From an uncultured Candidatus Saccharibacteria bacterium (GTDB taxonomy: Bacteria > Patescibacteriota > Saccharimonadia > Saccharimonadales > Saccharimonadaceae), in the NCBI GenBank assembly GCA_937859515.1, contig CALMAK010000021.1, positions 62,001 through 126,000 on the forward strand: a stretch of DNA of 64,000 bases, given 5' to 3'. The position numbers and the translations under genes are program-made. Below, in pieces: positions 22,022-62,877 of the stretch (positions within the stretch are counted from its first letter, which is position 1; each line of letters starts with the position of its first letter). The notes beneath the pieces were generated by a model. That model did no database searches. It saw nothing but the letters and a program-made list of their open reading frames with translations, and was not told the origin of the DNA.

Positions 22022-24952
22022 CTATACGACGATGTTCACCAGCCGGCCAGGAATATAGATCACCTTGGCTGACTGTTTGTTTTCCAGGAACTTAACGACG
22101 TTGGCTTCGTTCAGTGCCGCTGTTTTAATGTCATCCTCGCTGGCATCGGCTGCAATTTCCATTTTGGCGCGTAATTTGCCATTAACCTGCACGATAATCG
22201 TCATGGTACTGGCTACCAGCAACGCGTCATCCCAGACTGGCCACGCTGCCGTATCCAGTGATGAGTCGTTGCCCAATTGTTGCCATAATTCAGCACCAAT
22301 ATGCGGTGCAATCGGCGCCAGTAACTGTACCAATGCCTCCAAGCTGCCACGCCACTGCGACGAGAACCCGTCGTTTTTTAGTTTGTACAGCTCATTAACA
22401 TATTCCATCAGTGCGGCGATTGCCGTGTTAAAACTGAGACGACGATAATCGTTGGTGACTTTTTTAATTGTACGATGTGTAAGGGCAGTCAGTTCAGCAT
22501 TCTCGGCGTCAGATTTATCGGCGTCAATATATTCATAGGTCAGTGTCCAGACACGGTTCAAGAATCGGTAGACACCGGCGATGCCGCGCGACGACCAGTT
22601 GCTGTTTTCATTAATCGGACCCAGGAACAGCTCGAAGGTACGCAGCGCATCAGCACCATACCCCTGGTCAATGACCTCCAACGGGTCAACCACGTTACCC
22701 AACGACTTACTCATCTTACGACCGTCCTCGGCGCCAATCAGGCCATGGTAGACTAATCGCCCAACCGGCTCTTTAGCAGGGACCAGCCCCATGTCATAAA
22801 ATACATGGTTCCAAAAACGTACATACAACAGGTGCGCCACTGCATGATCACCACCAACGTACATATCCAATGGTGTCCAGTAGGCCGCCTTTTCTGGCGA
22901 CCATGCTTGCTGATCATTGCGTGGGTCAGTGTAGCGCAGTAAGTACCAGCTGCTGCAGGCGTACCCGTCCATGGTGTCTGTCTCGCGGTGAGCCTCGTGC
23001 CAGTCATCACCGTCTGGCCGACCCGCACTAAACGCTACAGATTCGCCGGTCGTCATGTTGTACCAAATATGCGCCCAGTCTTCCTGTGCGCCCAGTACTG
23101 ACTTGCCATCGCCCTTCGGTGCATAGTCTTCTACCTCTGGCAATAGCACTGGCAACTGGTTGGCAGGAATAACCACGGGACCATGGTCTTTGACATGCAC
23201 AACAGGGATTGGCGCACCCCAATAGCGTTGGCGGCTAATCAGCCAATCGCGCATTTTGTAAGTCGTCTTAGACCGCCCCGTACCCTGTTGTTCCAGCCAC
23301 GCCACGATTTGTTCGCGCGCTTCGCTGGTGGGCATGCCGTCAAAGGCGCCAGAATTAACCAGTAGCCCTTCGCGTACCTCTGTATCAATTGTCTTACCCT
23401 CTAGATATGCCTGCCAAGCATCTTGATGTCCATCCCAGGTCAGTCGTTTTTGAACTTCATCTTTTTTGACCCATTCGATACTATGTAAGCCCTGGTCGAT
23501 TTCACTCTCAACCTGCACTGACGGGTCAATTACTACCTCAAAAAAAGTACCCCATACCTTTTGGTTACGATTCTTCGTCTCGCGTGCATAAGTTCCGGCG
23601 TTGTATGGTGACGCTTGTTTAATACTAAGGACGGTTGTAAACCCAACTTCTTCGATAATCTCACGACGCAAAGCGTCTTCGGTTGTTGTGTCGGTCTCGT
23701 CAATTCCTCCACCTACAAAGTGCACGTGATGTTCGTTTTCAATCTCCAACAAATAGTTGCCCTTACCATCAGTAATAATAGCGTCAACCACTGGTCGATG
23801 AAGCGTCTCAAAATCATCCCGAGGCTCATCGCGCCCCGTGCCATACACATGTCGTGCAATTACCTGAATAACTGGCAACTTGAACGTTTCTGCAAACTCA
23901 AGATCCCTTTCGTCATGTGCTGGTACCGCCATAATTGCACCCGTACCATACCCGCCCAGGACATAGTCGGCAATCCAAATCGGCACGTTGTCACCCGTGG
24001 CGGGATTAACCGCATAACTGCCGGTGAAGACGCCCGTTTTTTCTTTGCCTTCTGTCTGGCGTTCAATCTCGGACTTTTTAATTGCCTCGTCAATGTATGC
24101 ATTAACTGCGTCACGTGTCTGATCGGTAGCCAGTGTGCGTGCCAGCGGATGCTCTGGGGCCAGGACCAAAAAGGTGGCGCCAAAGATAGTATCGGGCCGG
24201 GTGGTAAATACTGTAATAACATCGTCGGTACCTTCAACTGCAAACTCGACCTCCGCGCCTTCTGATCGACCAATCCAGTTGGTCTGTGCGGTTTTGATTT
24301 TCTCGGGCCAGTTGAGATCTGGGATCTCTTCCAGCAATGCATCAGCATAGTCGGTAATCTTGAAAAACCACTGTTTCATTGGTTTTTTAATAACCAATGG
24401 GTCATCAGGACCATCGTGTCGCCAGCTCTTACCATTGATCACTTGTTCGTTGGCTAGGACTGTCTTATCAATAGTACACCACCACTGCAGACTTTCTTTT
24501 TGATAGACTAGGCCGCGTTTGTAGAACTCCGTAAAGATCCACTGTGTCCATTTGTAATACTCGGGGTCGCTGGTATTAACCTCACGCGACCAGTCGATAC
24601 TGGCGCCCATACGACGCAGCTGATTGGTAAAGTTCGCAATGTTAGTGGCCGTGGTTTCTTGTGGCGATTTGCCTGTTTTGATCGCGTAATTCTCGGCGGG
24701 CAATCCAAACGAATCCCAACCCATTGGATTCATAACATTTTTACCGTGTGCACGCTGAAACCTGGCCACCGCATCAACAATCGAATGCTCCATGACGTGC
24801 CCAACGTGCATACCAGCACCACTGGGGTACGGGAACATGCACGAAATATAGAACTTTTGCTGGTCACTAAAGTCCATCGCCTGATAGCGATTGTCCTTAG
24901 CCCAAATTTCCTGCCATTTAGGCTCAATCTCAGATGGGTTATAGCGTCTCAT
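22022..24952 (-). CDS. leuS: Leucyl-tRNA synthetase with an inserted Nudix domain
   Basis: About 976 residues starting MRRYNPSEIEPKWQEIW. It has the class I motifs PSGAGMHVGH (HIGH) and DGRKMSKSLGN (KMSKS), and the editing domain with FTTRPDTIFGATF and YGTGAIMAVPAHDERD. After that block, where other LeuRS have a short linker before the VNSGAFDGM segment, about 150 residues form a Nudix domain with FVGGGIDETDTTTEDALRRE and IEEVGF. The insert lies at about 23393-23845. The enzyme charges tRNA-Leu; what the Nudix part adds is unknown. TATACT lies seven bases before the ATG, so the mRNA looks leaderless. Confidence 0.95.
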   Translation of the reverse strand: MRRYNPSEIEPKWQEIWAKDNRYQAMDFSDQQKFYISCMFPYPSGAGMHVGHVMEHSIVDAVARFQRAHGKNVMNPMGWDSFGLPAENYAIKTGKSPQETTATNIANFTNQLRRMGASIDWSREVNTSDPEYYKWTQWIFTEFYKRGLVYQKESLQWWCTIDKTVLANEQVINGKSWRHDGPDDPLVIKKPMKQWFFKITDYADALLEEIPDLNWPEKIKTAQTNWIGRSEGAEVEFAVEGTDDVITVFTTRPDTIFGATFLVLAPEHPLARTLATDQTRDAVNAYIDEAIKKSEIERQTEGKEKTGVFTGSYAVNPATGDNVPIWIADYVLGGYGTGAIMAVPAHDERDLEFAETFKLPVIQVIARHVYGTGRDEPRDDFETLHRPVVDAIITDGKGNYLLEIENEHHVHFVGGGIDETDTTTEDALRREIIEEVGFTTVLSIKQASPYNAGTYARETKNRNQKVWGTFFEVVIDPSVQVESEIDQGLHSIEWVKKDEVQKRLTWDGHQDAWQAYLEGKTIDTEVREGLLVNSGAFDGMPTSEAREQIVAWLEQQGTGRSKTTYKMRDWLISRQRYWGAPIPVVHVKDHGPVVIPANQLPVLLPEVEDYAPKGDGKSVLGAQEDWAHIWYNMTTGESVAFSAGRPDGDDWHEAHRETDTMDGYACSSWYLLRYTDPRNDQQAWSPEKAAYWTPLDMYVGGDHAVAHLLYVRFWNHVFYDMGLVPAKEPVGRLVYHGLIGAEDGRKMSKSLGNVVDPLEVIDQGYGADALRTFELFLGPINENSNWSSRGIAGVYRFLNRVWTLTYEYIDADKSDAENAELTALTHRTIKKVTNDYRRLSFNTAIAALMEYVNELYKLKNDGFSSQWRGSLEALVQLLAPIAPHIGAELWQQLGNDSSLDTAAWPVWDDALLVASTMTIIVQVNGKLRAKMEIAADASEDDIKTAALNEANVVKFLENKQSAKVIYIPGRLVNIVV

Positions 24953-24967
24953 ACATTTCAGTATAGC

Positions 24968-24998
24968 AGATGCCACCCCTTATATCGAGGTGGCATCT
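24968..24998. terminator. Hairpin between leuS and its upstream neighbour
   Basis: AGATGCCACC pairs perfectly with GGTGGCATCT around an 11-base loop. The T run is short, so termination is uncertain. It sits at the leuS promoter and after the stop of the upstream gene. Confidence 0.5.
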
Positions 24999-27543: not shown

Positions 27544-27693
27544 AGATGTTCCTATAGTACCAAAAAGCTTGCGTTTAGGCGAATAACCATTCATAATGAA
27601 TCCAGCTGGTGCGCTAGGGGCAACCTTGGCGCTAGCAAAAATAAACACATTGCAAAACTAAGCAGTGCCCCGGGTGGGCGCGCAACAGCTGCA

Positions 27694-27721
27694 AAAACAC
27701 TTCTCACACGAGGAGTGTTTT
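27694..27721. terminator. Terminator-like hairpin
   Basis: AAAACACTTCTC (27694-27705) pairs with GAGGAGTGTTTT (27710-27721) with one mismatch and an ACAC loop. It separates the Mur ligase gene start from the RNA locus and abuts the TATACT box at 27724. Confidence 0.6.
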
Positions 27722-27734
27722 GTTATACTATCAG

Positions 27735-27897
27735 ATGTACCGCTTCACCCAAAAACCAAGCGTAAGCGCAGGCTTTAGGGAGAGAATTACTCCGTCGAAG
27801 AGATACAGCGCACCGTAAGGTGAGCCTTCAGGGGGAGGAACGCGCATCCGAATTTATTTCGAATGTGAAGTGGAGGGGCCTCGCCCTTCCTACATAA
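27735..27897 (+). ncRNA. Candidate structured RNA upstream of tRNA-Ala
   Basis: A TATACT box (27724-27729) would start a transcript near 27735. The 160 bases before tRNA-Ala fold well by eye: AGGCT/AGCCT closes a region with hairpins GGAG/CTCC and CACC-GTAA-GGTG (a GNRA-type loop); then GCAT-C-CGAA/TTCG-A-ATG; then an eight-bp stem GGAGGGGC/GCCCTTCC just before the tRNA. It does not match any riboswitch or housekeeping RNA consensus I remember. It also contains a 27-codon open frame (MYRFTQKPSVSAGF...) near the 5' end, so a leader peptide is an alternative. Confidence 0.45.
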
Positions 27898-27973
27898 GGG
27901 GCATTAGCTCATCCGGTAGAGCGCTTCCATGGCATGGAAGAGGTGAGCAGTTCAAGTCTGCTATGCTCCACCA
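27898..27973 (+). tRNA. tRNA-Ala (anticodon GGC)
   Basis: Acceptor GGGGCAT with ATGCTCC, D-arm GCTC/GAGC, anticodon stem CTTCC/GGAAG around ATGGCAT (anticodon GGC), T-arm GCAGTTCAAGTCTGC, discriminator A, and encoded CCA. Confidence 0.96.
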
Positions 27974-62735: not shown

Positions 62736-62877
62736 CTAGGTTGCATCACTGCGAAGAATTAGGTACACTTACACCTACTATGATTCGTTAGAATCCTCTA
62801 TCCGTTCACGTTCGGACGAGCCGAACCGCTGACGACCTCTTCTTATTAATACCAAACAAAATCCAAGGAGACTTATT

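Follow-up and report, generated by a model that had tools for sequence, protein, structure and literature searches.

Upstream of a tRNA-Ala gene

What is the structured sequence that lies directly before a tRNA-Ala gene of this uncultured Candidatus Saccharibacteria bacterium: a small RNA of its own, the leader of a gene downstream, or an insertion? The sequence-only reading of the window (the whole 64,000-nt stretch of DNA analysed) had proposed an unrecognised structured RNA at positions 27724–27973, either linked to the tRNA and released by RNase P or serving as leader of the downstream RRM gene. On the evidence presented below, 27804–27891 very probably represents a mobile palindromic element of the non-autonomous type, one copy of which inserted between the -10 box and tRNA-Ala beside an older, decayed copy.

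All features of the locus described here are on the plus strand. The -10 promoter hexamer of the tRNA-Ala transcript, TATACT (27724–27729), already recognised as a -10 box from the sequence, aligns with TACAAT of G001, the only genome of the same genus that was searched. In G001, the tRNA-Ala starts 12 nt after TACAAT, and the DNA aligns with window positions 27660–27731 and then again from about 27893, the two matches being separated by 5 nt. Relative to G001, the genome of the window thus carries about 160 nt of extra sequence between the promoter region and tRNA-Ala (27732–27897). In a DNA search of relatives, conservation of the locus was confined to the promoter and the tRNA; the 3' portion of the intervening sequence had matches at dispersed positions in other genomes. 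The tRNA-Ala(GGC), with its CCA encoded, occupies 27898–27973 (ARAGORN; Rfam RF00005, 57 bits); the range first given was correct but includes this tRNA, the element proper being 27804–27891.

The complete copy of the dispersed element scored 80.3 bits with R1 and 71.4 bits with the R2 covariance model. It is composed of hairpin A with a GTAA loop (27808–27825; fold and covariance model), the counterpart of which shows the strongest covariation among the stems of the family, the conserved linker CTTCAGGGGGAGGAA (27826–27840; alignment of copies), hairpin B with the conserved tip GAATTTATTTC (27844–27866; alignment and covariation), and the terminal GC-rich hairpin C, GGAGGGGC/GCCCTTCC (27872–27890; fold and covariation), which ends 7 nt 5' of tRNA-Ala. 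Hairpins A and C are the GTAA-loop hairpin and the stem just before the tRNA that had been noticed beforehand. At 27753–27795, hairpin A, the linker and a shortened hairpin B form a probable first copy, decayed and truncated, which R2 detected weakly (10.1 bits, E = 0.0029 in a search of 211 bases).

The predicted fold of the 163-nt stretch has an energy of -55.3 kcal/mol (z = -2.68; equally stable shuffled sequences, 2 of 200), and folding energy alone gives moderate support for a structured RNA. The decisive support is comparative, i.e. the covariance-model score and the covariation over dispersed copies. The impression that the sequence matches no known RNA agrees with Rfam, in which no family was found over the element at gathering or permissive thresholds, the best weak match being whalefall-1 (12 bits vs 37). 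Nothing points to the short frames over the element being coding here, including the frame of 27 codons listed at first.

Three other features of the window were recorded. The segment 27660–27725 contains a conserved motif, GTGCCCCGGGTGGGCGCG(C/T)A(A/G)CAGC, followed in the window by a hairpin with a T-run; the motif is present in 12 displayed loci, often near tRNA-Ala or an opposite-strand RRM-protein gene, gave no Rfam match, and is possibly a separate conserved RNA or leader. On the minus strand, the leucyl-tRNA synthetase frame at 22022–24976 apparently contains an inserted NUDIX-like segment, as judged by eye. MDR-NUDIX RNA (RF02918), which we take to be a TM7 RNA family, was identified by Rfam at 62777–62835 with 71.7 bits, and both MDR-NUDIX and lysM-TM7, the latter with TM7 in its name, were found in the window and a related locus, in agreement with a Saccharibacterial origin of the DNA.

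A dispersed family of elements

By scanning 245 genomes of the same family with a covariance model built from eight copies, at least 185 copies of the element, about 85 nt in length, were identified in 40 genomes, the number per genome reaching at least 18. The genome of the window contains four strong copies, just one of which lies within the window. A phylum-wide scan of 379 genomes gave strong matches in four genomes, all belonging to the same family; weak matches in three genomes (E 0.0028 to 0.0094), candidates for spread beyond the family, were taken as chance. Among the 47 stretches identified by an exact-pattern scan of GTDB r220 contigs, the strong matches were all in Saccharibacteria-type or unnamed MAGs, and the element contigs with phylum-level titles were named Saccharibacteria, Saccharimonadia or Patescibacteria; nine stretches under non-Saccharibacterial names scored at most 26.5 bits, against 77–95 bits for true copies in the same test. 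For viral carriage, a search of IMG/VR with one exact pattern returned no stretch. Literature searches, covering mainly openly accessible papers, did not find an earlier description of such a Saccharibacteria element.

For comparison, 119 copies were retrieved at 100 loci in 33 genomes. Tandem copies are not confined to the window, being present in G017, G019 and two named contigs as well. In G019, arrays near contig ends (loci L031–L035, L170 and L174) contain a subtype in which there is an additional GGATCTTAGATCC hairpin. The median identity between copies is 0.61 within a genome and 0.58 between genomes, and near-identical copies are few; recent transposition is therefore suggested for a few pairs at most. 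Identical sites recur across several genera, for instance PcrA/UvrD in five genomes, indicating that some copies may be old and inherited.

The consensus structure includes hairpin A, the linker CTTYAGGGGGAGGRG, hairpin B with the tip GAATTNAYTTC, and the terminal hairpin C, GGAGGGG-loop-CCCCTCC. In 70 aligned copies (67 distinct rows), standard pairs occupy 91.7% of the cells, and changes on both sides were observed for 19 of the 20 pairs. The covariation score was 0.440, compared with 0.136 in shuffled alignments, none of 500 reaching the observed value, and with at most 0.110 when the pairing was slid. Eight of the aligned copies had served to build the model used for the alignment, which favours the structure to that extent, but compensatory changes in such number cannot be explained by model fitting alone. 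The proposal of a structured element before tRNA-Ala is thus borne out by covariation among its relatives.

Mispairs over the 119 copies included 71 G-U against 28 A-C (p = 2e-5 on the assumption of independent cells, which does not hold), an excess from which the plus strand would be the one that folds in single-stranded form, as either RNA or single-stranded DNA. Pairing is retained to the same degree by the copies in coding genes (19 copies; 343 of 380 cells paired), in tRNA leaders (185 of 199) and elsewhere (90 copies; 1618 of 1762), indicating that the fold is nowhere decaying; plain decaying relics would not show such equal retention, translated copies included. Comparison of orthologous copies for selection in situ revealed few changes. 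With respect to terminal inverted repeats, the ends of the element are not complementary across copies, and three local hairpins are formed instead.

Search for a mobilising partner

Y1 genes, of about 200–220 residues, are present in 46 of the 245 family genomes, and those with their own flanking hairpin repeats, of which there are several, are probable RAYT/REP systems of Saccharibacteria. The element itself might be of the REP type and moved by such a RAYT/Y1 transposase, since a larger share of the element-positive genomes (16 of 40) than of the element-negative ones (30 of 205) encodes Y1_Tnp, in statistics that ignore relatedness. This reading is, however, unlikely: no copy was found within about 1.5 kb of 40 tested Y1 loci, a part of all Y1 loci; the hairpins flanking several of these loci are different ones; and many copy-rich genomes (G018, G019, G170) have no Y1 at the threshold used.

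Movement as an IS200/IS605 element with TnpB omega-RNA was rejected because TnpB was not found in the carrier genomes, its marker PF07282 being detected in one of 245 genomes, an element-negative one. Reverse transcriptase showed no enrichment (9 of 40 element-positive vs 68 of 205 element-negative genomes). Among 44 perfect terminal hairpins in eight genomes, 41 were at listed full copies, and no split or autonomous parent form was seen.

Copies at tRNA genes and promoters

Ten of the 119 copies stop 5–11 nt short of a tRNA that is encoded in the same direction (tRNA-Ala, four; tRNA-Arg, four; tRNA-Lys and tRNA-Val, one each), and the four tRNA-Ala copies belong to four genera. Assuming 45 tRNAs and 0.85 Mb, roughly 0.02 such copies would be expected by chance, rising to 0.2 if insertion is restricted to intergenic DNA. 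The preference of the family for tRNA leaders is unusually clear.

These ten copies, the co-oriented position of the window copy between -10 box and tRNA, and the strong covariation would all fit a dedicated RNA gene that shares a transcript with tRNA-Ala and yields a functional small RNA upon cleavage by RNase P. Among 30 tRNA-Ala(GGC) loci, however, the element is present at only two (G000 and G016) and is missing from G001 of the same genus; 22 loci have a -10-like hexamer 9–27 nt before the tRNA, and six have neither hexamer nor element. In addition, 109 of the 119 copies are located elsewhere, 19 of them within protein genes. A dedicated RNA gene is therefore quite improbable. The suggestion of a tRNA-linked RNA holds as far as the element sits in a tRNA leader, which RNase P would cut off, but not as a gene of its own. 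Unrelated contexts, including in-frame positions in protein genes, and absence from most tRNA-Ala loci altogether indicate a mobile repeat: the window element is a real, unannotated structured element, but it is no new RNA gene.

Presence and absence at one site were also seen at tRNA-Arg(TCT) in the genus g18, where among 11 displayed loci six are empty, with 8–9 nt between the -10 box and the tRNA, two carry the element and three carry other inserted sequence. The last three (L215 in G161, L219 in G145, L217 in G169) have unrelated-looking inserts, some of them hairpin-like, between -10 box and tRNA, a place that may be a hot spot for insertions in general. A second copy in the genome of the window is likewise absent from the corresponding site of G001. 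The flanks of empty sites have diverged, so the exact ends of the element and a target-site duplication are not fixable from empty-site alignments. Beyond tRNA genes, -10-like hexamers were found 10–49 nt upstream of copies 50 times against about 18 expected, and 0–9 nt downstream 13 times against about 4 expected.

In three genomes (L079, L087, L092), the element is located at the 3' end of a gene that by eye appears to be lepA, and about 35–45 nt of the end of this gene are repeated, in similar sequence, after the element.

It is very improbable that the element acts in cis as a regulatory leader or riboswitch-like RNA, whether of the RRM gene in the window or of genes elsewhere. Copies do immediately precede the ribosome-binding site of the same small gene, the protein of which begins with MNDET, in five genomes from two genera (L055, L060, L066, L155, L171), and these copies are possibly domesticated. 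However, no function is common to the contexts of the family, coding and antisense copies cannot serve as leaders, and in the window the tRNA separates the copy from the RRM gene; the idea of an RRM leader has to be given up, as nothing links the element to that gene.

In-frame copies within protein genes

A total of 19 of the 119 copies are located inside the open frames of conserved genes from eight gene families, all in frame and free of stop codons: PcrA/UvrD (five copies), Fpg (four), GltX (three), TilS (two), TopA (two, at two sites), and MnmA, Der and RecJ (one each). The hosts were confirmed by Pfam/NCBIfam searches on nine of the 19 proteins, one per host gene and site. The copies in Fpg and MnmA are antisense to the host gene. 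In GltX, 32 residues stand in place of two residues of 2o5r, between residues 242 and 245; in Der, the insert is followed by a segment matching 4dcs from residue 72 onwards; and in TopA, the insert lies in a loop, the exact ends not being settable because the length of this loop varies among relatives. When the remaining copies were scanned for open frames of 70 residues or more on each flank, no frame-breaking insertion was found; 14 cases were flagged, and on inspection these were read as adjacent genes, frames arising by chance or the duplicated end of lepA, and not as split genes.

An intron-like element spliced out of RNA, to which the retention of hairpins in coding genes could be ascribed, is hardly tenable given that all 19 intragenic copies are in frame and stop-free with no broken frame found, that those in Fpg and MnmA are antisense, and that no Rfam intron matched; splicing or bypassing was rejected on the ground that every intragenic copy found is in frame.

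Possible mode of propagation and its implications

The mobile-repeat reading draws on direct observations, i.e. dispersed copies, presence and absence at the same site, a covarying fold, in-frame insertion and clustering at tRNAs and -10 boxes. The form recognised would be the folded single-stranded plus strand, as RNA or single-stranded DNA, and a candidate enzyme, encoded by the host or by a mobile element, might recognise this fold, copy the element and insert it. Regions of promoters and tRNA starts could be preferred because they are melted there or because insertion is harmless, and insertions would survive at harmless places such as tRNA leaders, intergenic spots and protein loops that accept an insert of about 30 residues. 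Leaders of tRNA that bear the element would presumably be removed by RNase P, and the product of the window locus may simply be a pre-tRNA-Ala with a long 5' leader of about 160 nt. More tentatively, and with considerable doubt, the family might represent a new SINE-like class of selfish element in bacteria, of which the folded strand transposes, melted DNA at promoters and tRNA starts is the target, and the fold is selected even within translated essential proteins.

The family offers natural experiments, in which the same gene occurs with and without an insert of about 30 residues, and the same tRNA with and without a structured leader of 160 nt. It also gives a warning that a structured, covarying and unannotated 'RNA' beside a tRNA can be a mobile repeat.

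Comparison with known elements

The element resembles the REP/REPIN elements with their RAYT in its dispersed hairpins, its enrichment at promoters and in intergenic DNA and its plausible single-stranded DNA fold, but it is longer (85 nt, three hairpins), is often intragenic, and shows no linkage to Y1 genes. Bacterial MITEs such as ERIC, RUP and Correia are likewise small, dispersed and non-autonomous, with structured transcripts; in contrast to these, the Saccharibacteria element has no recognisable terminal inverted repeats, and a parent transposon was not found.

To our knowledge, protein-coding palindromes have been described as a peculiarity of Rickettsia. The presence of an independent family in Saccharibacteria, whose lifestyle is likewise parasitic and whose genomes are likewise reduced, suggests that selfish repeats inserted in frame recur in the evolution of such genomes and their proteins. 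In the parts of the literature drawn on here, the Rickettsia palindromic elements (RPEs; Ogata et al. 2000, 2002) are located in frame in protein genes and also in the genes for tmRNA and RNase P RNA (PMC2229807, PMC10969869). As far as these sources describe them, the RPEs, of about 100–150 bp, and the Saccharibacteria element are both short hairpin-forming repeats carried in frame in many conserved genes of a parasite with a reduced genome, with copies in intergenic DNA and at RNA genes as well; an autonomous partner was not found for the Saccharibacteria element. The RPE, according to the same sources, is one long stem with terminal inverted repeats, whereas the Saccharibacteria element forms three separate hairpins with strongly covarying stems, prefers promoters and the interval that separates -10 box and tRNA, and differs in both phylum and sequence. 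By this analogy, the element appears to behave like an RPE while constituting a different family in a different phylum.
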